From Planotetraspora silvatica (GTDB taxonomy: Bacteria > Actinomycetota > Actinomycetes > Streptosporangiales > Streptosporangiaceae), in contig NZ_BOOQ01000007.1 of the NCBI RefSeq assembly GCF_016863315.1, positions 62,001 to 126,000 on the forward strand: a DNA stretch of 64,000 nucleotides, in the 5' to 3' direction. Numbering within the stretch: position 1 is the first letter of the stretch; each line of letters begins with the position of its first letter. The notes beneath the pieces are model-generated. The model was not told the DNA's origin, did no database searches, and saw only the letters and a list, made by a program, of their open reading frames with translations. Of this stretch, positions 46,575 through 58,552 are shown piece after piece. The translations under genes and the position numbers were made by a program.

Positions 46575-48866
46575 GTGGCGAGAAAGGCTCCGCGGCAGGA
46601 CGCCGGCGACGAGGGGCTCGAGGTAGGACCTCCGAAGGAGTGGGCGGCGGGTGTTCCCGGGGTGGCCCACTCGCTGGCGATGTCTTATGCCCAGATGGGT
46701 GTCAAGCGCACACTTCTGACATTGGTGCGGGTGAATCAGAAGCACGGCTTCGACTGCCCGGGGTGCGCCTGGCCGGAAGGGCGACACCGCAGCCCCGCGG
46801 AATTCTGTGAGAACGGCGCGAAGGCGGTGGCGGAGGAGGCGACCCTTCGCCGGGTGACCCGCGATTTCTTCGCCGAGCACCCCGTGACGGAATTGGCCGG
46901 GCGCAGCGACTACTGGCTGGGTCAGCAGGGCAGGCTCACCGAGCCGATGTACAAGCCGGCCGGATCCGACCATTACGAGCCGGTGGCGTGGGACGAGGCG
47001 TTCTCGATCATCGCCAGGGAGCTCAGGGCGCTCGAGAGCCCCGATGAGGCGCTCTTCTACACCTCCGGGCGGACGTCGAACGAGGCGGCGTTCCTCTACC
47101 AGCTCATGGTCCGCCGTTTCGGCACCAACAACTTGCCCGACTGTTCCAACATGTGCCACGAGTCCAGCGGCTCGGCCCTCACCCAGACGCTGGGCATCGG
47201 CAAGGGAACGGTGTCGCTGGACGACCTCCACAAGGCCGACCTCATCTTCGTGGTGGGGCAGAACCCCGGCACCAACCACCCGCGCATGTTGTCGGCGCTG
47301 GAGAAGGCCAAGGGGAACGGCGCCCGCATCGTCGCGGTCAACCCGCTGCCCGAGGCCGGGCTGATGCGGTTCAAGAACCCCCAGAAGGCGAGCGGGGTCG
47401 CCGGGCGCGGCACGAAACTGGCCGACCGGTTCCTCCAGATCCGCCTCAACGGCGACATGGCGCTGTTCCAGGCCCTGTCGAAGCTCATGCTCGAGGCCGA
47501 CGACGCGGCCCCGGGGTCGGCGGTCGACCACGAGTTCGTCGAGACCCACACCCACGGGTTCCGCGATTTCGAGAAGAACGTCCGCGAGCTCGAATGGGAG
47601 GACGTGGAGGAGGCGACGGGCCTGCCCCGGACCGCCATCGAGGAAACGGTCCAGGACGTGCTCGGCGCGAAGTCGGTGATCGTGTGCTGGGCCATGGGCC
47701 TGACCCAGCACAAGAACTCCGTCGCCACCATCCGGGAGGTCGTCAACTTCCTGCTGCTGCGCGGCAACGTCGGGCGGCCGGGGGCCGGGGTGTGTCCCGT
47801 GCGAGGGCACTCCAACGTCCAGGGCGACCGCACGATGGGCATCTACGAGAAGCCCTCGGCGGCCTTCCTCGACGCGCTGCGTGACGAGTTCGGCTTCGAG
47901 CCGCCCCGCCGCCACGGCGCCGACGCGGTGGAGTCGATCAGGGCCCTGCGCGACGGGCACGCCAAGGTGTTCATCGCGATGGGGGGCAACTTCGTCTCCG
48001 CGACGCCGGACACGGCGGTGACCGAGGCGGCGATGCGGCGGGCCAGGCTCACCGTGCAGGTGTCGACCAAGCTGAACCGGTCCCACGCCGTGGCAGGTGA
48101 GCAGGCGCTCATCCTCCCCACGATGGGCCGCACGGAGAAGGACGGCGACCGGTTCGTGACGGTCGAGGACTCAATGGGCATGGTGCACGCCTCCCGGGGA
48201 CGGCTGGCTCCCGCCTCACCCGATCTGCTCTCCGAAGTGGCCATCGTCAGCCGGCTGGCCATGAGGCTCTTCGAGCAGGACGGCGTCGCCGGCATCCCCT
48301 GGGAGCGTTTCGAGACCGACCATGACGCCATCCGGGACCGCATCGAGCGCGTGGTGCCCGGATTCGACGACTTCAACGCCAGGGTGCGCGAGCCCGGGGG
48401 CTTCACCCTCCCCAACGCCCCCCGCGACGAACGGCGCTTCCCGACCGACACGGGCAAGGCGAACTTCACCGCCAACGCCCTCGAGGTCCTCCGTCTCGCG
48501 CCGGGGCGCCTCCTGCTGCAGACGGTGCGCAGCCACGACCAGTACAACACCACGATCTACGGCATGGACGACCGCTACCGCGGCGTGCACAACGGCCGCC
48601 GGGTCGTCTTCGTCAACCCCGACGACCTCGCCGAGCGCGGCATCGCGGACGGCGAACTCGTCGATCTGATCAGCGAGTGGCCCGACGGGGAGCGCACGGC
48701 CGAGGCGTTCCGTGTGATCGCCTACTCCACCGCGCGCGGGTGCTGCGCGGCCTACTTCCCCGAGACCAATGTGCTCGTGCCGCTCGACTCGACCGCGGAC
48801 ACCTCCAACACCCCCACGTCCAAGAGCGTCGTCGTACGGCTCAAGCGGCACGTCGCCGCCGAATGA
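46575..48866 (+). CDS. FdhF/YdeP family molybdopterin oxidoreductase
   Basis: A 763-residue cytoplasmic bis-MGD enzyme related to formate dehydrogenases. Near residues 58-78, CPGC and a later Cys (EFCENG) replace the classic four-Cys FeS motif. TSGRTSNEAAFLYQ and the probable Mo ligand Cys in SNMCHESSG are present. VVGQNPGTNHPRML, RPGAGVCPVRGHSNVQGDRTMGI and the C-terminal molydopterin-binding TVRSHDQYNTTIYGMDDRYRG follow. GTG 46575 has GAGG upstream. Without clear electron-transfer subunits, its in vivo acceptor is unknown. It ends in a strong hairpin. Confidence 0.92.
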   Translation: MARKAPRQDAGDEGLEVGPPKEWAAGVPGVAHSLAMSYAQMGVKRTLLTLVRVNQKHGFDCPGCAWPEGRHRSPAEFCENGAKAVAEEATLRRVTRDFFAEHPVTELAGRSDYWLGQQGRLTEPMYKPAGSDHYEPVAWDEAFSIIARELRALESPDEALFYTSGRTSNEAAFLYQLMVRRFGTNNLPDCSNMCHESSGSALTQTLGIGKGTVSLDDLHKADLIFVVGQNPGTNHPRMLSALEKAKGNGARIVAVNPLPEAGLMRFKNPQKASGVAGRGTKLADRFLQIRLNGDMALFQALSKLMLEADDAAPGSAVDHEFVETHTHGFRDFEKNVRELEWEDVEEATGLPRTAIEETVQDVLGAKSVIVCWAMGLTQHKNSVATIREVVNFLLLRGNVGRPGAGVCPVRGHSNVQGDRTMGIYEKPSAAFLDALRDEFGFEPPRRHGADAVESIRALRDGHAKVFIAMGGNFVSATPDTAVTEAAMRRARLTVQVSTKLNRSHAVAGEQALILPTMGRTEKDGDRFVTVEDSMGMVHASRGRLAPASPDLLSEVAIVSRLAMRLFEQDGVAGIPWERFETDHDAIRDRIERVVPGFDDFNARVREPGGFTLPNAPRDERRFPTDTGKANFTANALEVLRLAPGRLLLQTVRSHDQYNTTIYGMDDRYRGVHNGRRVVFVNPDDLAERGIADGELVDLISEWPDGERTAEAFRVIAYSTARGCCAAYFPETNVLVPLDSTADTSNTPTSKSVVVRLKRHVAAE

Positions 48867-49037: not shown

Positions 49038-49907
49038 ATGACCTGGCAGCGGAAGGTCAATAACGCCTTCATCAAGTACGCAGGATTCCAGTTCAATCGA
49101 GTAGGGAATGGGGGGCCGGCGGAGGCCGCGCCGGAGGAGCTGGTCCGGCCGCCGGAGGATCCGCGGATCGATCGGCTGCTGGCCGCGCCGATCTTCATCC
49201 TGTCTCCCGTCCGCTCGGGTTCCACTCTGCTGAGGGCGATGCTCAACGCCCACTCGATGTTGCACGCCCCCCACGAACTCCACGTGCGGCGGCTCTTCGT
49301 GAACTTCGGGACCCCGCTGGCCGAGTCGGCGATGAGCGCCCTCGGCCACAACAGGGCCGACCTGGAGCATCTGCTCTGGGACCGGGTGCTCCACCGGGAG
49401 CTCGTCAAGAGCGGCAAGCGGTTCATGGTGGACAAGACCCCGGCCAACGCCTTCGCCTACCAGCGGATCACGGCCTGCTGGCCCGACGCGCGGTTCATCT
49501 TCCTGCTGCGTCACCCCGCGTCCATCGCGGCCTCATGGCACGAGGCGGACCCGGAAAAGCGCACTCCCGAGGAGGCGGCGCTGGACGCCCTGCGGTACAT
49601 GAAGGCGGTCGAACGGGCGCGTAAGGCGCTTTCCGGCCTGACCGTGAGATATGAGGACCTGACCGCGGAGCCGGAGAAGGAGACCCGCCGGATCTGCGAA
49701 TTCCTCGACGTCCCCTGGGAATCAGGAATGCTGACATATGGCGACCTGAGCGTCGCGGAGAAGGGGCTCGGCGACTGGAAGGACAAGATCCGTTCCGGCC
49801 GTGTCCAGGCCGGCCGTGACCTGCCCTCCGAAGGGGAGATCCCCGACGCGCTGAAGCCGATGAGCGTGCGCTGGGACTACCTTCCCCGTACGGCGGAGCG
49901 GACATGA
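49038..49907 (+). CDS. Sulfotransferase
   Basis: A 289-residue PAPS-dependent sulfotransferase. The 5'-phosphosulfate loop PVRSGSTLLRAML is at residues ~57-69. The 3'-phosphate-binding region ARFIFLLRHPASIAASW and a later VRYEDLTAEPEKETRRICEFL complete the Sulfotransfer fold. No signal peptide. The acceptor is unknown, but the next gene is a GT4 glycosyltransferase only 19 bp away, so a glycan or glycolipid acceptor is inferred. No strong ribosome site precedes ATG 49038. Confidence 0.9.
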   Translation: MTWQRKVNNAFIKYAGFQFNRVGNGGPAEAAPEELVRPPEDPRIDRLLAAPIFILSPVRSGSTLLRAMLNAHSMLHAPHELHVRRLFVNFGTPLAESAMSALGHNRADLEHLLWDRVLHRELVKSGKRFMVDKTPANAFAYQRITACWPDARFIFLLRHPASIAASWHEADPEKRTPEEAALDALRYMKAVERARKALSGLTVRYEDLTAEPEKETRRICEFLDVPWESGMLTYGDLSVAEKGLGDWKDKIRSGRVQAGRDLPSEGEIPDALKPMSVRWDYLPRTAERT

Positions 49908-49926
49908 GCCGTCGCGGGACGGTGCT

Positions 49927-51075
49927 ATGAAGATCCGCTACATGCTCCTCCACGCCTACGGCATGGGGGGCACCATCCGCACGGTCCTCAACCAGGCCAA
50001 CGCCATGGCCGCCGCCGGGCACGACGTAGAGGTGATCAGCACGGTCCGGCGGCGCGACGAGCCGCAGTTCGAGATCGATCCCCGCGTGCGCCTCACGGCC
50101 CTGGCCGACCAGAGGGGCGGGGTGCGGCGCGACTCCGTGGGCCGCCGGGCCTGGCGCATGATGCGCGGCAGGCTCGTTCCGGTCGGGGAGTTCAAGGCCG
50201 AGTACTTCACCGAGCGGGTGGAGCGGGCGGTCATCGACTACGTCTCCTCGCTGAGGGACGGGATCCTGGTGACCACCCGGCCGGCTCTCAACCTCATCTC
50301 GGCCCGCCGTACCCCCGGGAGCGTGGTCCGCATCGCCCAGGAGCACATGAACCTGGGCACCTACCCGGAGACCGTGCGCGCCGACATCGCCCGCCACTAC
50401 TCCCGGTTCGACGCGGTCGTGACGCTGACGGCGAGCGACCGCGACGACTACCGCGAACTGCTGCCCGGCACCCGCGTCGAGTGGGTGCCGAACGCCGTCG
50501 CCACGCTCGGCCGGACGCCCTCGCGGCAGGAGAACCCGCTCGTGGTCGCCGCCGGCAGGCTCGTCGGGCAGAAGGGCTTCGACCTGCTCATCCCGGCGTT
50601 CAAGCAGGTCGTGGCGTGCAATCCGGAATGGAGCCTGCGCATCTTCGGCACCGGCCCGAAGAAGGCCGACCTCAACGCGCTGATCGAGAAACACGGGTTG
50701 GCCGGCAACGTCACGCTCATGGGCCGCAGCGACCGGCTCGACCAGGAGCTGGCCAAGGCGTCGATCTACGTGCTCAGCTCCCGCTTCGAGGGGCTGCCGA
50801 TGGTGATGATCGAGTCGATGGCCCACGCGCTGCCGATCGTCGCCTTCGACTGCCCGACCGGTCCCGGCGACGTCCTCACCCACGAGGTGGACGGCCTGCT
50901 CGTGCCGGGCGGTGACGTCGACGCGCTGGCCTCCGGCGTGAACCGGGTCATCGCCGACCGCGATCTCCGCGTCCGGATGGGTGCGGCCGCCGCCGCGACG
51001 GCTCTGGAGTACTCGCCGCAGAAGGTCATGCCGAGGTGGGAGAACCTGTTCGCCGACCTCTCCGCCGCCCGCTGA
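49927..51075 (+). CDS. Glycosyltransferase family 4 protein
   Basis: A 382-residue GT-B fold enzyme. The N-terminal acceptor domain starts MLLHAYGMGGTIRTVLNQAN. The C-terminal donor domain has VVAAGRLVGQKGFDLLIPAF, LRIFGTGPKKADLNALIE and SSRFEGLPMVMIESMAHALP (the E-x7-E region of GT4). The donor and acceptor sugars are unknown. It follows the sulfotransferase in the same direction and is followed by a dyad that may end the transcript. Confidence 0.92.
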   Translation: MKIRYMLLHAYGMGGTIRTVLNQANAMAAAGHDVEVISTVRRRDEPQFEIDPRVRLTALADQRGGVRRDSVGRRAWRMMRGRLVPVGEFKAEYFTERVERAVIDYVSSLRDGILVTTRPALNLISARRTPGSVVRIAQEHMNLGTYPETVRADIARHYSRFDAVVTLTASDRDDYRELLPGTRVEWVPNAVATLGRTPSRQENPLVVAAGRLVGQKGFDLLIPAFKQVVACNPEWSLRIFGTGPKKADLNALIEKHGLAGNVTLMGRSDRLDQELAKASIYVLSSRFEGLPMVMIESMAHALPIVAFDCPTGPGDVLTHEVDGLLVPGGDVDALASGVNRVIADRDLRVRMGAAAAATALEYSPQKVMPRWENLFADLSAAR

Positions 51076-51107
51076 GGAGATCGCACGGCCTCAGTCCTGG
51101 GGTTCAT

Positions 51108-51134
51108 CCCGACAAATAAGTGTCATTTGTCGGG
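51108..51134. promoter_or_regulatory. Perfect 10-bp-arm palindrome, candidate operator
   Basis: CCCGACAAAT and ATTTGTCGGG (51108-51117, 51125-51134) flank AAGTGTC. The dyad lies 62 bp upstream of the FAD monooxygenase start, the position of a TetR/MarR operator. It could double as the glycosyltransferase terminator. Confidence 0.6.
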
Positions 51135-51195
51135 TTTAGGGTATTTCGTCCACCTGTGGTGGGTCTCTCAGCGAGATCCAGCGGAAAGGGACGTC

Positions 51196-52683
51196 ATGGC
51201 TGCCGTAACGGACGTGGTGGTCGTGGGGGCGGGCCCCACGGGGTTGCTCGTCGCGGCCGATCTCGCCACGGCAGGCCTGTCCTGTGTCGTGCTCGAACGC
51301 CGTCACGGCGAGTCGAACCTGAGCCGCGCCGCCGGCGTCCACGCGCGGACGCTCGAGGAACTCGACGCGCGCGGTCTGGCGGACGACTTCGTGGCGGCCG
51401 GCCTCCCCATCGACACGCTGAAGGTGTTCGGGCGTGGAGTGCTCGACCTGTCCCGCCTGGACACCCGCTTCCCGTACATGCTGGCCATGCCGCAGTTCAT
51501 GACCGAACGGCTGCTCACGGAGCGGGCCAGGAAGATGGGCGTCGAGTTCGTGCCGGGCGCGGAGGTGACGGGACTGCGCCAGGACGCCGACGGGGTGGAC
51601 CTCGACATCCGGGCCCACGACGGCCAGGAGTCCACCTGGCGGGCCCGCTACGTGGTGGGCGCCGACGGGGTGCGCAGCGCGGTTCGGCGCTCGCTGGGCC
51701 TGCCCTTTCCCGGCCTCTCCGTGGCGCGCTCGCTCCTGTTGTGCGACGTGCGGATGACCGATCCGCCGCCGAACGTCCTGACGGCGGACGCGGTCAGGGA
51801 CGGGTTCGCCTTCGTGCTGCCCTTCGGCGACGGCTGGTACCGCGTGATCGTGTGGAGTCGGCGAAGACGGCGGCCCGACACCGCCCCGGTGGAACTCGGC
51901 GAGATCCGCGAGATCACCCGGCGGGTGCTCGGGACCGACTTCGGCATGCACGACCCCCGATGGATATCGCAGTTCCACTGTGACGAGCGGCAGGTGCCCA
52001 CCTATCGCGTGGGGCGGGTCTTCCTCGCGGGCGACGCCGCGCACGTGCACTCCCCGGCGGGTGGTCTCGGGATGAACACGGGCCTGCAGGACGCGGCCAA
52101 CCTCGCGTGGAAGCTCGCCGCCGTGATGCGGGACGGGGCGCCGGCCTGGCTGCTCGACACCTACGGCAGCGAACGGCACCAGGCCGGCGAGCTCGCGCTC
52201 CGCACCAGCGGCAGGCTCCTGCGCAGTGCGATGGCGCGCCCCCGGACGTTGCGCGCGGCCTGGCGGGTGCTTCTCCGGGCCGGCATGCGCTACCCGCCGC
52301 TGGCCCGGCGCATGGCGGAGACGGTCTCGGGGATCGGCCTCGCCTATCCCGCGGCGCCCGGCGCCCATCCGCTCGTGGGCCGCCGAGCGCCGGACGTCCC
52401 GCTGGACGGTCCCGGCCCGAAAAGCGTGTACCAGGCGTTGCGTTGCAGACGCTGGCTACTGGTCGCGCCCGAGGGCTCACGGATCCCGGCCCAGGCGGCC
52501 GCCGGGTGGGACGGCCGCGTGCGGGTCGTCACGGCGGGCGGCGCCACCAGCACGCTCGTGCTCGTCCGCCCTGACGGATACATCGCCTGGGCGGCCGGTG
52601 CGGGCTCCGAGTCGTCCGCCGACCGGATCCGTACGGCTCTGGCCGAATGGTGCGGCCCGCCGCCGACCCCGGTCACCCACTGA
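51196..52683 (+). CDS. FAD-dependent aromatic monooxygenase (class A)
   Basis: A 495-residue flavoprotein hydroxylase of the PheA/TfdB class. FAD loop VVGAGPTGLLVAADLATAGL is at ~residues 8-27. The DG motif GADGVRSAVR and the GD motif FLAGDAAHVHSPAGGLGMNT are present. The C-terminal thioredoxin-like domain (~385-495) ends in VLVRPDGYIAW. These enzymes hydroxylate phenols, polyketides or antibiotics; rifampicin-inactivating enzymes belong to the same family, but substrate cannot be assigned. ATG 51196 chosen; the longer frame to 51127 lies inside the palindrome. Confidence 0.9.
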   Translation: MAAVTDVVVVGAGPTGLLVAADLATAGLSCVVLERRHGESNLSRAAGVHARTLEELDARGLADDFVAAGLPIDTLKVFGRGVLDLSRLDTRFPYMLAMPQFMTERLLTERARKMGVEFVPGAEVTGLRQDADGVDLDIRAHDGQESTWRARYVVGADGVRSAVRRSLGLPFPGLSVARSLLLCDVRMTDPPPNVLTADAVRDGFAFVLPFGDGWYRVIVWSRRRRRPDTAPVELGEIREITRRVLGTDFGMHDPRWISQFHCDERQVPTYRVGRVFLAGDAAHVHSPAGGLGMNTGLQDAANLAWKLAAVMRDGAPAWLLDTYGSERHQAGELALRTSGRLLRSAMARPRTLRAAWRVLLRAGMRYPPLARRMAETVSGIGLAYPAAPGAHPLVGRRAPDVPLDGPGPKSVYQALRCRRWLLVAPEGSRIPAQAAAGWDGRVRVVTAGGATSTLVLVRPDGYIAWAAGAGSESSADRIRTALAEWCGPPPTPVTH

Positions 52684-52716
52684 CCGGTTCTCCGGGAGCC
52701 GGAGACCGCCGGGCGT

Positions 52717-53706
52717 TCACCGGACGGCGGGGTGGACCGTCCCGCCCGGCCGCGGCCTGTCCTGGCCGCGCCGCCGGCCGTCACGGCGCAGGAACAGCAC
52801 CACGGCGCCGGGCAACGTGGAGACGAACGTGAGGACGCCGTAGACCACCGCGGCGGTGAGCCCCTGGGCGGCTCCCAGACCCGTGACGCCGAACGCCAGG
52901 GTGGAGACGGCCTCTCTCGGCCCCCAGCCTCCGATGTTCACCGGCAGGCCCATCACGAGGAGCGTCAGAACCAGCGGCGGCAGCAACTGCGAGACCGTCG
53001 CGTGTGATCCCGCGGTGCGGGCGGCGACGAGGAAGAGGACGAGGTGCCCCGCCACCGCGCCGGCGGACAGCAGCGCCACCCGCGGCCAGACGTCGCGGGC
53101 GAGCAGGGCGGTGCGCCCCTCCGTCCATGCCGTCGCGAGGGCGCGGTGCCACGGTGCCCCGCCCCGCCGCGACAGGGTCCATCCGCCGATCACGAGGAGG
53201 ACGGCGAGCAGGACCAGCGCCCCGATCGTCAGCGCGCTGCCCGGCGCGAGGTCGTGGGCCACGGCCGAGATCAGCGCGGGCTGGGTGAGCAGCACCGTCA
53301 CACCCACGGCGATGAGCACCACCTGGCCGGCGAACCGTTCGAGGACCACGGCGCGCACGCCCCGGCCCACGTTCCCGGACTGCCGGCCGTGACTCACCGC
53401 CCGGTGGACGTCCCCGAGCACTCCCGCGGGCAGCAGCACGTTGAGGAACAGCGCCCGGTAACAGTCCGCGACGGCCGTCGGCAGCGACAGCCGCAGGTCG
53501 AGTCGACGCGCCACGAGACACCAGCGCCAGGCGCTGACCACGGTGGTCGCCAGGCCGATCACGAGGGCCGCGATCGCCGACCGGCCGTCGATCACGCGAA
53601 GCCCGTCCACGAAGGCGCCCGTGCCGAGGCGCCACACGAGGATCCCCAGGATGCCCGCTCCGATGAGCATCCGCAGCCAGGGCCAGAGCCTGCGCATCAG
53701 CGTCAC
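52717..53706 (-). CDS. LPG-synthase-like TM protein (flippase-like domain, UPF0104)
   Basis: A 329-residue polytopic membrane protein with eight or so helices, including LMIGAGILGILVWRL at the N-terminus. YRALFLNVLLPAGVLGDVHRA, VLERFAGQVVLIAVG and VNIGGWGPREAVSTLAFG are typical of the lysylphosphatidylglycerol synthase TM superfamily (YbhN/AglD-like). Family members move or modify lipid-linked molecules. The GTG at 53706 overlaps the upstream methyltransferase stop (GTGA). It is the last gene of the leftward chain. Confidence 0.85.
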   Translation of the reverse strand: MTLMRRLWPWLRMLIGAGILGILVWRLGTGAFVDGLRVIDGRSAIAALVIGLATTVVSAWRWCLVARRLDLRLSLPTAVADCYRALFLNVLLPAGVLGDVHRAVSHGRQSGNVGRGVRAVVLERFAGQVVLIAVGVTVLLTQPALISAVAHDLAPGSALTIGALVLLAVLLVIGGWTLSRRGGAPWHRALATAWTEGRTALLARDVWPRVALLSAGAVAGHLVLFLVAARTAGSHATVSQLLPPLVLTLLVMGLPVNIGGWGPREAVSTLAFGVTGLGAAQGLTAAVVYGVLTFVSTLPGAVVLFLRRDGRRRGQDRPRPGGTVHPAVR

Positions 53707-54563
53707 GCGGCGACCGCCCTCGGGGGGAGCACGAGCAGGTCGGTGTGGTGGAGGACGACGCCGAGCTCGCCCGCGTGGCAGGCCTGGAGCCTTCTGCGCA
53801 GGTAGGGATCCGTCCGGGACGTGAGGTCGGGCCGCTGCTCGCAGGCGGCGGCGACCCACCCGCGCAGCCATTCCTCCGCCAGAGCGGCGGAGTCCGCGCC
53901 GAGCCGCCAGGGGCTCGGACGGCTCCGCACCACAGCTCCGCGTCGCTCGAAGGCCTTGGTGGCGGCGTCGGGGGCGTCGGGGCCGAGCAGACGGCGGCCT
54001 CCGGTCGTGCGTCGCTGATGGGCGTTGAAGGCCTCGGCCAGCTCGGCGTCGAGAGGGTCGGCGGGGGACAGGTCGGCCCTGCCCGCGACGGACAGGGTCA
54101 GCAGCGCCGGGCAGCCGGCGTCGACACACGCCGCGGCCAGATCGTCGATCTCGTCGAACGTGAGCAGATCCAGCAGCGCGGACGCGGTCACCAGCGACGT
54201 GCCGCCGAAGTCGTCGGCGCGCAGAGCGGTGAGATCTCCCTGGCGGGTCTCGACCGTCACCGGGCCTCCGTCGGCCGCCGAGGTGGGCACGCCCTCATCG
54301 ACGTGGGCGAGCAGCTCGGGATCACGATCACGGAGGATCCAGTGTTGCGGGCCGCGCAGCCGCCCGGCGAGCCATCGGACCTGTGAGCCGGTGCCGCAAC
54401 CGAGATCCTGGATGACCAGCCGCTCCGGTGCGACCTCCGCCAGGTAGGCCCGCAGCGGGTCGAGCAGCTCGGCCGCTCTGGCCGCGGCGTCCGCGCCCTC
54501 GCGCAACGCCAGCCAGTCCGGGGTGACTCGGGCCGGCTCGCCGCCGGATGCCGGCGTGCTCAT
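53703..54563 (-). CDS. Class I SAM-dependent methyltransferase
   Basis: A 286-residue methyltransferase. The SAM loop IQDLGCGTGSQVRWLAGRL is at residues ~51-69. LRDRDPELL (motif II) and SLVTASALLDLLTFDEIDDLA (post-I/III) follow. The substrate is unknown. It overlaps both neighbours by 4 bp (stop/start TGA with ATG on the glycosyltransferase side, GTGA on the membrane protein side), so all are one coupled operon. Confidence 0.88.
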   Translation of the reverse strand: MSTPASGGEPARVTPDWLALREGADAAARAAELLDPLRAYLAEVAPERLVIQDLGCGTGSQVRWLAGRLRGPQHWILRDRDPELLAHVDEGVPTSAADGGPVTVETRQGDLTALRADDFGGTSLVTASALLDLLTFDEIDDLAAACVDAGCPALLTLSVAGRADLSPADPLDAELAEAFNAHQRRTTGGRRLLGPDAPDAATKAFERRGAVVRSRPSPWRLGADSAALAEEWLRGWVAAACEQRPDLTSRTDPYLRRRLQACHAGELGVVLHHTDLLVLPPRAVAA

Positions 54564-55648
54564 CGTGTCCCTCCTTGTAGTCGTCCGAGCACGACGGCCA
54601 TGCGCCGTGCCGTCTCATGCCACGGTTCCAGCCGGTCACGGCGATCGCGTGCCGAGAGCCGGAGCCGGCGCCGCAGGCCGGGATCGCCGAACCAGCGGCG
54701 AAGCCCCGCCGAGATCGCCGCGGGGTCCTCCGGAGATACAAGGATTCCCGGCGGATTGCCATCGGAAGCCTCACCGAGGGTCTGCGGCACGCCGCCCACG
54801 GCCGTGGCCAGCACCGGGACCCCGCGCGCCAGCGCCTCGGTCACGACCATGCCGTACGTCTCCGAGCGGGACGGGAGCACCACGAGGTCGGCGCCCGCGT
54901 ACTCCCCGGCCAGCCGCTCACCCGTCAGCGGGCCGGCCAGCCGTACACGGCCGGCGAGCCCGAGACGATCGATCAGCCACCGCAAACGGCCGACATGCGC
55001 GGGATCCCGGCTCAGCGGCCCGACGATCTCGCAGCTCCAGGACGGCTCCCGGACGTCCGCGAGGGCCTCGACAAGCAGGTCGTGGCCCTTGGTCGGGGTC
55101 ACAGAGCCGACGCAGAGCAGCCGGGAGGAGCCGTCGGTGCCGGACGCCAGGGGCGCGCCGTCGGCGCCGGGGGAGACCACGTGGACCCGTTCTCCCGGCA
55201 GCCCGTGGTGATCGATCAGCCGGCGCGCCGTCCAGGGGCTGGTGGCCACGACGACTCCGGCGGCGTGCAGGGTCTCCCGTTCGAGGGCGTCCAGGTCCGC
55301 CGCCGCGTCCGGCTCCGGCCCGATCTCGTCGCCCAGCGGCAGGTGGACCAGGACCGCCAGGCGCAGCCGCCCGGCGTGCGGGACGATCACGTCGGGGACC
55401 CCGCACGCGACGAGCCCGTCGAGGAGGACGACCGCGTCATCGGGCACCGCGGCGAGCGCCCGGGCGAGCTCCGTCCGGGCGTCGTCATCCGGTCGCGGCC
55501 AGGCTCCCCGCACGGCGATCTCGTGGACCGGCAGACCGCCCGCCGCGAGCCCCTGGCAGACCTGGCGGTCGTAGACGTTGCCGCCGCTCGGGGCGGCCAC
55601 GTCGTCGACGTCGCCGGGCAGCACGGCGAACACGGCGGCCGTGCTCAC
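54560..55648 (-). CDS. Glycosyltransferase family 4 protein
   Basis: A 362-residue GT-B enzyme. N-terminal [17 protein letters not shown], donor-side [40 protein letters not shown] and [20 protein letters not shown] (E-x7-E) are GT4 motifs. The acceptor domain lacks the extra N-terminal segment of many wall enzymes. It shares 4 bp with the methyltransferase (downstream) and with the PTPS-like gene (upstream), so all are co-translated. Likely glycosylates the product of the cluster. Confidence 0.92.
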
Positions 55649-56043
55649 AGGGTGCGCTCGTACGTCGCCCAGGCGACATGCGACTCGTGCAGGGAGACGG
55701 TGATTCCCGCGAGCCCGCGGGCCCCCTCTCCGAGCGCGCCCGCGTGAACCCGGTCGGCGAGCCGGTCGGCGATGACCTTGGCCAGGTACTCGGTCGAGGT
55801 GTTGACGCCGGTGAAGGCGGGCTCGTCGTCGAGGTTGCGGTAGTTGAGATCGGCGAGCACCGCGCTGAGCTCCTGGGTCGCCAGCCCGATGTCGACGACG
55901 ATGTTGTCGGCGTCGAGGTCGGCGCGGCGGAACGTCGCGTCGACCACGAACGTCGCCCCGTGCAGCCGCTGCGCGGGGCCGAAGACCTCGCCGCGGAAGC
56001 TGTGAGCGATCATGACGTGGTCGCGAACGGTGATGCTGAACAA
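55645..56043 (-). CDS. PTPS/QueD-like protein with degenerate active site
   Basis: A 132-residue protein of the 6-pyruvoyltetrahydropterin synthase/6-carboxytetrahydropterin synthase fold. [11 protein letters not shown] keeps the first zinc His (H14). In the canonical C-x(n)-LHGH motif, this protein reads PAQRLHGA: the catalytic Cys is Ala and the third zinc His is Ala30, with only H28 kept. The C-terminal [12 protein letters not shown] retains the Glu/His region. A TTG start at 56043 with AGAGG 7 nt upstream fits best; no ATG is near. It is translationally coupled to GT4. Confidence 0.82.
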
Positions 56044-56054
56044 GGTGGAACCTC

Positions 56055-57038
56055 TCAGGGCTGGGCGGGGTCGTAGACGATTCGGTGACACAGAGCGGAC
56101 GGATCGCCGGCGAGACGGGACATCGCCCCGGGCAGGTCCTCGAACCCGCTCTCGCCGGTGATCAGCGCGTCGAACACGGGATCGGCGAGCAGGCGCAACG
56201 CCAGCGACAGCCGGTCGGAGAAGCCGCGGCGCGCACGCCGGGCCGGGGACACCATGCCCACCTGGCTGCTGCGGAGGGTCAGACGGCGGGAGTGGAAGAA
56301 CTCGCCCAGGGGCAGGCTGACCCGGCGGTCGCCGTACCAGCTGAGCTCGATGACCGTTCCCTCGGGCGCGAGCAACTCGAGGGACCGGAGCAGTCCCGCC
56401 TCGGTGGCGCTGGCGTGGACGACGAGGTCGCACTCGCCCTCGGCCTCATCGGGCGACGCGAAGCCGACGCCGAGCGCCGCGGCGACACCGGCCCGCGCGG
56501 GATTCACATCGACCAGTTGGACGCCGACGCCGGGGAATCCCGAGAGCAGCCCGGCCACGGCGCAGCCGACCATCCCGGCGCCGACGACGGCGATCCGATC
56601 GCCGACCAGTGGCGCCGCGTCCCACAGGGCGTTCACCGCGGTCTCGACGGTTCCGGCGAGCACGGCCCGCTCCGGGGGCACCCCGTCCGGCACGGGGACG
56701 ACCGTCTCGGCGGGGACCACGTAACGGGTCTGGTGGGGGTAGAGGCAGAAGACGGGACGGCCGAGCAGATCCGGCGGCCCGTGCTCGACGACCCCGACGT
56801 TGAGGTAGCCGTACTTCACGGGCCAGGGGAAGTCGCCCTCCTGGAACGGCGCCCGCATCACGTCGTACTGGTTCTCGGGCACGCCGCCGCGCAGGACCAG
56901 GGTCTCGGTGCCCCGGCTGACCCCCGAGCAGAGCGTACGGACCCGCACCTCGCCTGGGCCTGGCTCCGGCAGGGCGACCGATCTGATCTCGCCCTCTCCG
57001 GGAGACGTGAACCAGAAGGCACGTGCCGTACGTATCAC
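56055..57038 (-). CDS. Zinc-type medium-chain dehydrogenase/reductase
   Basis: A 327-residue MDR-superfamily enzyme. It shows the [16 protein letters not shown] entry of BchC-like/zinc-binding alcohol dehydrogenases, then [17 protein letters not shown] in place of the usual GHE zinc motif. The NAD(P) loop [15 protein letters not shown] is at ~residues 183-197. C-terminal [21 protein letters not shown] completes the fold. The GTG start at 57038 follows GGAG by 9 nt. First gene of a five-gene leftward operon; it may oxidise the alcohol or polyol of the cluster's product. Confidence 0.85.
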
Positions 57039-57067
57039 CGGGCATCTCCTCAATTGGTGGATAGATG

Positions 57068-57091
57068 GTACATATGGGTACGAATGAGTAC
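57068..57091. promoter_or_regulatory. Three GTAC motifs at 10-bp spacing
   Basis: GTAC occurs at 57068, 57078 and 57088 exactly 10 bp apart, within ATG-containing decamers (ATATGGGTAC, GAATGAGTAC). The sites face the same side of the helix in the 64-bp divergent promoter. Confidence 0.6.
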
Positions 57092-57102
57092 AGGGGTTCC
57101 GA

Positions 57103-57897
57103 ATGACGGCACCGTCCATACGAACTACTCCAACAACACGTGCACAGTTCGGCGCGGGTTCAATCCACTGGGAACAGGCCGCCGGGGCGGGTGTCCAGGT
57201 CGGCCTGCTGGGCCTCCTCCACGCCGTCGTGGGCCTGAGCACGGCGAGCCTGGCCGCCGGGGTCGTCTACACGGCCGCCCTGTGGGTGTTCCTCGCCGTC
57301 GCCGCCAGGCGGTCGGGAACCCGCTCACTGGGCCCGGCCGATCATGTCACGCTGGCTCGCGCGCTGCTCGTCGGGGGTGTGACGGCGCTCGTGGCGGTCT
57401 TGGTGATGACGGATCACCCGGCCGGAGGGCTGTCGCTGGTGATCCTCGTCACACTCGCCACGGTGGCCCTGATCCTCGACGCCGTCGACGGTCAGGTCGC
57501 CAGGCGCACCGGGACCGTGTCCAAGCTGGGCGCACGCTTCGACATGGAGGTCGACGCCTTCCTGATCCTGGTCCTGAGCGTCTACGTCTCGGTCTCCCTG
57601 GGCGCGTGGGTGCTGGTGATCGGCGCCATGCGGTACGCCTTCGTCGTGGCCGGCTGGACGACGCCCTGGCTGCGGTCGGCGTTGCCGCCGAGCTTCGCCA
57701 GGAAGGTCGTGGCGGCGACGCAGGGGATCGTGCTCGTCGTGGCCGCCTCGGGCGTGCTGCCGTACCCCGTCGAGGCCGTCTCGGTCGGAGCGGCGCTGGC
57801 GTCCCTGGTGTGGTCCTTCGGCCGCGACGTCGTCTGGCTCCGGCGCAACCGCCCCGCCCGGACAGGGGCGGCGCCGGCGGGTAGGGCTAGCCGGTGA
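57103..57897 (+). CDS. CDP-alcohol phosphatidyltransferase family protein
   Basis: A 264-residue integral membrane enzyme with six or so helices. The full catalytic motif D-x2-DG-x2-AR-x8-G-x3-D-x3-D is present: D126, D129, G130, A133, R134, G143, D147, D151. It should join a CDP-activated lipid to an alcohol acceptor, or a CDP-alcohol to a lipid. The acceptor is unknown. It is divergent from the MDR-PTPS-GT4-methyltransferase-flippase operon and shares its short promoter. Its stop overlaps the end of a convergent regulator gene by 11 bp. Confidence 0.92.
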   Translation: MTAPSIRTTPTTRAQFGAGSIHWEQAAGAGVQVGLLGLLHAVVGLSTASLAAGVVYTAALWVFLAVAARRSGTRSLGPADHVTLARALLVGGVTALVAVLVMTDHPAGGLSLVILVTLATVALILDAVDGQVARRTGTVSKLGARFDMEVDAFLILVLSVYVSVSLGAWVLVIGAMRYAFVVAGWTTPWLRSALPPSFARKVVAATQGIVLVVAASGVLPYPVEAVSVGAALASLVWSFGRDVVWLRRNRPARTGAAPAGRASR

Positions 57898-58552
57898 GGC
57901 CGAGTTCGCCCGCGCGTAGCCCGGCCTGGAACCGGGAATCGGCCTCCAGCGTGGCCATGAGCTCGGCGACCCGTCTCCGGTAGGTGCGCACGGACAGGCC
58001 GAGGCCTCTGGCCGCGGTCTCGTCGGTGTATCCGGCGCCGAGAGCGCGCAGGACGGCCCGGTTGTCGTCGTCGAGATGGGGCCGGTCGCCGGACAGATAG
58101 GCCGCCAGGTCGGTCGCGTTGTCCCACGCGGCGAGGAAGAGGGCGTGCACGCCGCTGACGAGCGCGGGCGAAGTGGTGACGGTGAACTCGCGTGGGCCCG
58201 GAGCCTCAGGGCTCGCGAGGATCATCACCCGCCGGTCGATGATGATCGTTTCGTGGGGGAGCGGTGCCGAGCTGATCCGCACCCGGCCGCCCGCGGCCGT
58301 GATCTGGCCAAGGTGCCGTCGCGACGCCTCGTCGGCGAGGGCGGCCGGCGTGAGCAGCTTGCGCACCACGAAACCGGCCGTGCCGTCCGCGTGCATCCGG
58401 CCGCTGATCGCCTCCCGTGCCTCAGGTTGCGACCACGTGTCCAGATCGCGGGCCGCGCACACGAACTCGTGACGGGCGCCGGCGAACAGATGACCCGCGC
58501 GAGCGACGAGCTCCGCGTCACCGCGGACGGTCATGACCTGGTTAGCAGTCAT
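57887..58552 (-). CDS. LuxR-like transcriptional regulator with PLD-type sensor half
   Basis: A 221-residue protein. The C-terminal winged or LuxR-like helix-turn-helix (ALGAGYTDETAARGLGLSVR and on, ~residues 165-220) ends in SRFQAGLRAGELGL. This ending is typical of short actinomycete LuxR relatives. The N-terminal ~150 residues resemble a TrmB/phospholipase-D-like regulatory fold (ETIIIDRRVMILASPE). No canonical receiver Asp is seen. It overlaps the end of the CDP-alcohol gene by 11 bp in convergent orientation; it could control the neighbouring cluster or the divergent aldo-keto reductase. Confidence 0.8.
   Translation of the reverse strand: MTANQVMTVRGDAELVARAGHLFAGARHEFVCAARDLDTWSQPEAREAISGRMHADGTAGFVVRKLLTPAALADEASRRHLGQITAAGGRVRISSAPLPHETIIIDRRVMILASPEAPGPREFTVTTSPALVSGVHALFLAAWDNATDLAAYLSGDRPHLDDDNRAVLRALGAGYTDETAARGLGLSVRTYRRRVAELMATLEADSRFQAGLRAGELGLTG

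Follow-up and report, generated by a model that had tools for sequence, protein, structure and literature searches.

The 64,000-nt window analysed here, positions 62,001-126,000 of contig NZ_BOOQ01000007.1 of Planotetraspora silvatica, contains five leftward genes, encoding an MDR-fold dehydrogenase, a PTPS-like T-fold protein, a GT4 glycosyltransferase, a methyltransferase (MT) and an LPG-synthase-TM type membrane protein (LPG), and, divergent from them, a rightward gene for a CDP-alcohol phosphatidyltransferase (CDPAT). We propose that these six genes encode the later steps of a pathway that starts from GTP and is conserved in actinobacteria, whose product would be glycosylated and, in most lineages, lipid-linked; we give this reading an even chance of being right.

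Six genes in a divergent arrangement

The initial annotation had drawn five leftward genes and a rightward CDPAT gene at this place, and all six frames are indeed open from start to stop at the coordinates of Table 1. Third-position G+C is 0.88-0.94 in each, which matches genes of such G+C and indicates that the six frames are real genes. Overlaps of about 4 bp had been described among four of the genes; three junctions (PTPS/GT4, GT4/MT and MT/LPG) overlap by 4 bp, while MDR and PTPS are spaced by 11 bp and the PTPS start codon is TTG. The divergent gap between MDR and CDPAT is as short as had been said, except that it measures 64 bp and not 65 bp. Five of the six proteins pass Pfam cut-offs, all except the dehydrogenase, for which a model fold is available. 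The proposed gene families and operon are supported.

Table 1. Features of the cluster in the window and related gene pairs elsewhere in the same genome
Feature	Coordinates	Strand	Size and basis
MDR-fold dehydrogenase, core gene	56055-57038	-	327 aa; AlphaFold2 model and fold match
PTPS-like T-fold protein, SCO6650 ortholog by sequence, core gene	55645-56043	-	132 aa; Pfam PTPS
GT4 glycosyltransferase, core gene	54560-55648	-	362 aa; Glycos_transf_1
Class I S-adenosylmethionine (SAM)-dependent methyltransferase (MT)	53703-54563	-	286 aa; Methyltransf_25
LPG-synthase-TM type membrane protein (LPG), possible flippase	52717-53706	-	329 aa; PF03706
CDP-alcohol phosphatidyltransferase (CDPAT), divergent partner	57103-57897	+	264 aa; PF01066
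MDR-CDPAT divergent intergenic region, presumed promoters of both units	57039-57102	none	64 bp; geometry
Stand-alone pairs of GTP cyclohydrolase II (GCHII) and RibD_C genes	L099 7925-9533 (contig C46); L100 7967-9339 (contig C16)		

The PTPS-like protein scores 81.4 bits against Pfam PTPS (cut-off 22.4) and matches Streptomyces coelicolor SCO6650 in the PDB (3d7j, 6e-72), of which it is the ortholog; in NCBIfam both QueD (34.0 bits against 89.25) and 6PTHBS (22.7 against 125.5) remain under their cut-offs. When the protein is aligned with 23 relatives and with 2g64, a putative PTPS by annotation, Ala24 and Ala30 (both 24/24) replace the Cys and the second His of the HGH motif of 2g64, Tyr68 (23/24) replaces the His of its DHRNLD motif, and Glu120 is invariant (24/24). 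We take position 30 to be that of the zinc His, 24 that of the catalytic Cys and 68 that of the catalytic His, and Glu120 presumably holds the 2-amino-4-oxo ring in such folds. Because these three positions are occupied by Ala30, Ala24 and Tyr68, the protein probably does not work as a pterin synthase, which corrects the initial annotation; zinc-dependent pterin synthase chemistry was dropped as a candidate on the ground of the replaced positions. The authors of 3d7j reportedly found neither zinc nor PTPS activity.

For the dehydrogenase every Pfam score stays below its cut-off (ADH_zinc_N, 17.6 bits against 31.8). Its AlphaFold2 model (mean pLDDT 88) matches MDR dehydrogenases, best 2d8a with E 1.2e-20, and predicts an MDR fold with an NAD-type Rossmann domain. 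Among 24 aligned sequences column 37 holds Tyr in 9, Phe in 9, Cys in 3, His in 2 and Arg in 1, and D177, C98, H102 and E132 are invariant (24/24). The redox family named by the initial annotation stands as far as the fold is concerned, but the alignment shows no conserved catalytic zinc Cys (3/24 at column 37).

The glycosyltransferase passes the Glycos_transf_1 cut-off with 105 bits. It also matches Pfam GT4-conflict with 60 bits, as a protein of a biological conflict or defence system might; we regard such a system as very improbable here, since this match is weaker than that to Glycos_transf_1 and is common to the other GT4 gene of the window (49927-51075), and since PADLOC gave a single weak match, of 17.4 bits, for MDR and none for the other five proteins. 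On the PADLOC result this candidate was dropped.

MT barely passes the Methyltransf_25 cut-off (27.5 bits against 27), and its D53, G55 and G57 are invariant in 25/25 aligned sequences. LPG scores 103.4 bits against LPG_synthase_TM (PF03706; cut-off 33.4), with TIGR00374 under its cut-off, and is a possible flippase. CDPAT is over the cut-off of CDP-OH_P_transf (PF01066) with 44 bits. The perfect catalytic motif attributed to it, DxxDGxxARx8GxxxDxxxD, is in fact complete, the nine motif and charged columns that were checked are invariant (25/25), and R86, R145, R177 and K201 are likewise conserved in 25/25. The nearest fold match of its model (mean pLDDT 88) is PgsA, a weak one at E 0.009, all matches having E >0.001.

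No sigma-70-type promoter match was found in window positions 52600-58000, and a regulatory palindrome between MDR and CDPAT was not retained as a candidate, the window showing only a weak one. The commonest 7-mers in the MDR/CDPAT intergenic regions of relatives (25 of 53 regions) resemble ribosome-binding sites. The heptamer GTACGCG, on either strand, occurs, as a raw count, in 20 of the 53 regions and could be an operator or promoter part.

Conservation of the neighbourhood

Two sets of loci were compared. The first comprises the best 80 of at least 376 confirmed loci, obtained by scanning genome contigs with the 132-aa PTPS protein and picked by similarity. The second comprises 34 loci from evenly drawn genomes, namely 33 of the 47 class matches other than the window and one phylum match; the 14 class matches left out all belong to one genus (g3). 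Genes were counted by tblastn above thresholds of score or length, and the loci extend over at most about 20 kb; some of them stop at contig ends, where a missing gene says little. PTPS matches occur in 9 of 246 genomes from an even draw across the phylum (E <=1e-25) and, in an even draw across the class, in 47 of 345 genomes and 22 of 127 genera (E <=1e-15), the window genome included in both counts. The cluster was found in species of Streptomyces, Micromonospora, Actinomadura, Amycolatopsis and Pseudonocardia.

In 65/80 loci of the first set, where they span 4.6-7.4 kb, and in 19/34 of the second, the six genes are all found no more than 8 kb from the PTPS gene; this supports the suggested co-occurrence of the six families in actinomycetes at this distance. 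Within the same 8 kb MDR is present in 79 of the 80 loci, GT4 in 77, MT in 75, CDPAT in 74 and LPG in 73. The 34 loci of the second set contain PTPS in 34, GT4 in 34, MDR in 32, LPG in 29, CDPAT in 26 and MT in 25, together with GCHII in 26, RibD_C in 16 and a creatininase-family gene in 13; the two loci without MDR (L104 and L120) are on contigs cut beside it. MDR-PTPS-GT4 is a near-invariant core. Seven flanking genes of the window behave differently, two recurring in 1/80 loci each and five in 0/80. Since the set recurs across several actinobacterial genera and the flanking genes hardly do, it is more than a chance assembly; a scattering of the set in relatives was looked for and not found.

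Three diverged loci (L103, L127 and L128; PTPS 51-56% identity) retain, of the six, just MDR-PTPS-GT4, with no CDPAT, MT or LPG nearby, so that the lipid part of the pathway may be an add-on to a glycosylated core. L127 has GCHII and RibD_C besides, L128 is cut close to its MDR, and a fourth diverged locus, L126 (PTPS 45% identity), has all six genes. The same three loci would also suit a natural product that is soluble and secreted, a glycosylated pyrimidine or pteridine made by GCHII, the PTPS-like protein, MDR and GT4, with LPG serving export or protection and CDPAT, which is usually on the opposite strand, modifying membrane lipids separately. We consider this alternative unlikely, though worth keeping in mind: the core is accompanied by CDPAT in 74/80 and 26/34 loci and by LPG in 73/80 and 29/34, although the flanking genes do not accompany it.

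The recurrence of flanking genes in at most 1/80 loci led to the rejection, as members of the cluster, of the FAD monooxygenase, regulator-like, sulfotransferase, aldo/keto reductase, GDPD, phosphatase and molybdopterin oxidoreductase genes; the second GT4 gene (49927-51075) was excluded from this count because it cross-hits the operon GT4. Four Amycolatopsis loci (L007, L011, L013 and L059) have a second GT4 homolog (54-55% identity) about 7 kb downstream, with an inositol-monophosphatase-like gene, assigned to its family on L009, in between. In L110, L135 and L136 the operon carries two further genes between GT4 and MT; one was identified in L110 as an MFS transporter gene and the other in L136 as a Methyltransf_19 gene. 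As for the surroundings in the window, positions 49038-52683 form one rightward row of sulfotransferase, second GT4 and FAD monooxygenase, the last resembling rifampin monooxygenases with scores far under their cut-offs, and a molybdopterin oxidoreductase of 763 aa is encoded at 46575-48866. On the other side, the leftward gene 57887-58552, with weak DUF6879 and helix-turn-helix matches and no conservation with the cluster, overlaps the 3' end of CDPAT by 11 bp with its own 3' end.

GTP cyclohydrolase II and its switch residue

In most relatives the cluster is accompanied by GCHII with a creatininase-family and/or a RibD_C gene, which the initial annotation had missed and which points to GTP entering by a riboflavin-type route. 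GCHII lies near the core in 64/80 loci of the first set and 26/34 of the second. A riboflavin-like GTP-opening module would feed an orphan pathway.

This recurrence bears on two further alternatives. One is a pterin pathway based on GTP cyclohydrolase I, of the tetrahydrobiopterin, queuosine or 7-deazapurine type, in which the PTPS-like protein would act as QueD/PTPS. The Pfam PTPS match agrees with it, as do huimycin-type clusters, in which, according to PMC7439116, a methyltransferase and a glycosyltransferase accompany GTP cyclohydrolase I and a QueD-like enzyme. It is nonetheless improbable, given the QueD score of 34 bits against a cut-off of 89, the replaced zinc His, Cys and catalytic His positions, and a recurrent cyclohydrolase that is GCHII, the genes for GTP cyclohydrolase I, QueE and QueC not having been searched for in the loci. 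A huimycin-like 7-deazapurine cluster was dropped as a candidate on the ground that huimycin uses GTP cyclohydrolase I (PMC7439116); its other enzymes were not searched for in the loci. The second alternative, a glycolipid pathway unrelated to GTP with GCHII, creatininase and RibD_C as passengers, agrees with the lack of a linked GCHII in the window and with two cluster genomes (G414 and G475) that have neither GCHII in the cluster nor a second copy. We find it as improbable as the first, because GCHII recurs in so many loci, extra GCHII copies accompany the cluster and its switch residue tracks a neighbouring gene.

The switch residue, which we take to be the position of E. coli Tyr105, was read from GCHII alignments. 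In S. coelicolor SCO6655 a Met stands in place of the Tyr matching E. coli Tyr105, which is reportedly why this enzyme turns GTP into the 5-formylamino compound; the assay of the enzyme is already known. Among the 64 GCHII of the first set 45 are non-Tyr (29 Met, 15 His, 1 Cys) and 19 are Tyr; a creatininase-family gene is in the locus in 45/45 of the former and 0/19 of the latter. The second set repeats this pattern with 26 GCHII, where the gene accompanies 13/13 non-Tyr (6 Met, 3 His, 3 Leu, 1 Gln) and 0/13 Tyr proteins. When the sets were pooled, with the near-duplicate L115 dropped and the three GCHII of the window genome added (31 of the 34 Tyr rows being cluster loci), the creatininase-family gene was found with 58/58 non-Tyr and 0/34 Tyr rows, and RibD_C in the locus with 32/34 Tyr and 12/58 non-Tyr rows. 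Fisher tests of this rule ignore relatedness. Family membership was checked with Pfam for two creatininase-family genes and for the RibD_C genes, whose nearest NCBIfam model, the archaeal ribosylamino-pyrimidinone reductase, gives 133.8 bits and so stays under its cut-off of 186. In a quick MDR+PTPS tree the switch residue and creatininase labels change five times, and together.

The cluster is also associated with GCHII copy number: at least two GCHII matches are present in 25/30 genomes with the cluster and 5/30 without it, the two groups not being matched by relatedness. Of the five cluster genomes with a single GCHII, three (G272, G446 and G498) have their sole copy inside the cluster.

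The window genome has three GCHII genes, all with the switch Tyr. That on contig C2 lies in a frame of more than 600 aa. Those on C16 and C46 are each followed by RibD_C, with none of the six cluster genes nearby; they are 84% identical to each other and group in the GCHII tree with the cluster-linked Tyr type (100/99). Near one of these pairs (L100 10523-14461) lies a 1312-aa frame that, judged by eye, resembles a non-ribosomal peptide synthetase adenylation-carrier part followed by membrane and hexapeptide-repeat parts. No creatininase-family gene is present at the window's cluster. Two are found elsewhere in the genome, at C7:140196 and C30:159226, and were rejected as a missing partner, being superfluous with Tyr-type GCHII and not adjacent to GCHII. 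The one on C7, the window's own contig (L102 14139-14987, about 14 kb right of the window), is possibly the mycofactocin gene MftE, at a guess based on its Pfam family.

Several observations weigh against the GTP-derived, lipid-linked pathway or against the reach of the rule. The window's cluster has no GCHII, and two extra GCHII are on other contigs; G414 and G475 have the cluster and a single GCHII located outside it. RibD_C is missing near 46/58 non-Tyr GCHII and for this reason is not assumed to be necessary everywhere. The creatininase-family proteins resemble MftE more than ArfB, with every equivalog score under its cut-off; for two such proteins from relatives the NCBIfam scores are 130 and 135 for MftE (cut-off 172), 92 and 98 for creatininase (235) and 34 and 38 for ArfB (180). 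GT4 and LPG are absent from L024 and L027, and L072 has PTPS alone, in the first set; CDPAT, MT and LPG are absent from 8, 9 and 5 of the 34 loci of the second. Moreover, the non-Tyr GCHII form one branch of the GCHII tree (98/85, switch column included), and well supported MDR+PTPS branches force just one of the five changes; as a consequence, the rule by which the switch residue predicts the neighbour gene holds consistently, but few independent events behind it are proven.

A proposed pathway and its known relatives

In the pathway that we propose, a dedicated GCHII would open GTP, a step strongly supported by comparison. The Tyr form would directly yield 2,5-diamino-6-ribosylamino-4(3H)-pyrimidinone 5'-phosphate, and the non-Tyr form would halt at the 5-formylamino compound, leaving deformylation to the creatininase-family protein encoded nearby; on the strength of the switch-residue rule, the conversion of GTP to this intermediate, directly or via the formyl compound and a formamidase, is very probably the pathway start. 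What the sequences themselves show is the gene families, their conservation and the GCHII-creatininase rule; the later reactions, the lipid link and the transport are inferred. A RibD_C reductase, where present, would form the ribityl chain. The zinc-less PTPS-like protein would use its kept Glu to bind the 2-amino-4-oxo ring and, together with MDR, reshape the side chain or ring, perhaps closing a pteridine, and GT4 would then add a sugar. At most loci, the window's included, a methyl group would be added, CDPAT would link a hydroxyl of the product to lipid via a phosphodiester, and LPG would flip the lipid-linked product outwards. In the window genome the genes for the first two steps would be the two unlinked GCHII-RibD_C pairs on other contigs. 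We infer a product that is a glycosylated, usually lipid-linked pyrimidine or pteridine.

A more doubtful extension, which we put forward tentatively, is a new class of membrane lipids in which a pyrimidine or pteridine formed from GTP by a split route would be glycosylated, methylated, phosphatidylated and flipped outwards, and which would be switched on in aerial hyphae and spores. In the split route GCHII would open the ring where elsewhere GTP cyclohydrolase I does, and the zinc-less T-fold protein with its MDR partner would do the later reshaping. If the lipid reading is true, a base-containing lipid would be added to the actinomycete cell surface.

The rule itself shows two gene sets for one intermediate. 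It also gives a reason for a GCHII that stops half-way, reportedly an oddity, as a creatininase-family neighbour accompanies it in 58/58 rows. The pathway is present in five named genera and in 47/345 class genomes, and its product name was not found in open papers. In the open-access literature searched, subscription papers being outside the search, no paper was found that names the product or describes the whole gene set, nor did the genes map to a described glycolipid or antibiotic pathway. The first impression that no known pathway has this set holds in that no named product was found; it needs qualifying in that what appears to be the same orphan locus, with one solved structure, lies at S. 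coelicolor SCO6650-SCO6655. The structure of SCO6650 is an already known part.

The Streptomyces order (for example L130), PTPS-GT4-MT-LPG-creatininase-GCHII, would fill the six tags SCO6650-SCO6655, so that SCO6652 is probably the methyltransferase; PMC2853524 names SCO6655 as GTP cyclohydrolase II. According to PMC3610822, SCO6652 changes by log2 +0.8, +4.3 and +4.1 at 24, 48 and 72 h in the second versus the first mycelium, and in PMC2853524 SCO6655 (r -0.61) is in a table whose genes mostly rise in stationary phase. These published values suggest late expression of the S. coelicolor locus, in aerial mycelium and spores. For the late-gene list that includes SCO6655, PMC2853524 proposes secondary metabolism, a point in favour of the soluble product discussed above.

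Compared with known systems, the GTP-derived, lipid-linked pathway shares single elements with several. The window PTPS is like QueD/PTPS (COG0720) in Pfam family and fold and differs in its replaced zinc and catalytic positions and in the unmet QueD and 6PTHBS cut-offs. MDR has its fold in common with BchC and other MDR dehydrogenases; BchC is its best NCBIfam match with 39.7 bits, far under the cut-off of 291, and MDR has no conserved zinc Cys. CDPAT shares the complete catalytic motif with PgsA, PIP synthase and archaetidylinositol phosphate synthase, but it remains under the cut-offs of the three NCBIfam models that it matched.

The archaeal/BrbF-type start of riboflavin synthesis belongs to a route that is not known to have counterparts of the cluster's later enzymes. 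In that start, as PMC9478397 describes for archaea, opening of GTP and deformylation are split between two enzymes (GCH III and ArfB), and a bacterial creatininase-like formamidase is also reported there, so that the proposed chemistry has a precedent. The creatininase family and the RibD_C reductase of the cluster correspond to this start, whereas the opener differs, being a GCHII with the switch Tyr replaced, and the creatininase-family proteins differ from ArfB in being nearer MftE in NCBIfam, under all cut-offs.

The closest counterpart is S. coelicolor SCO6650-SCO6655. The window likewise has the SCO6650 ortholog next to MDR and GT4, but its GCHII and RibD_C genes are unlinked, duplicated and of the Tyr type, and there is no creatininase gene at the cluster.

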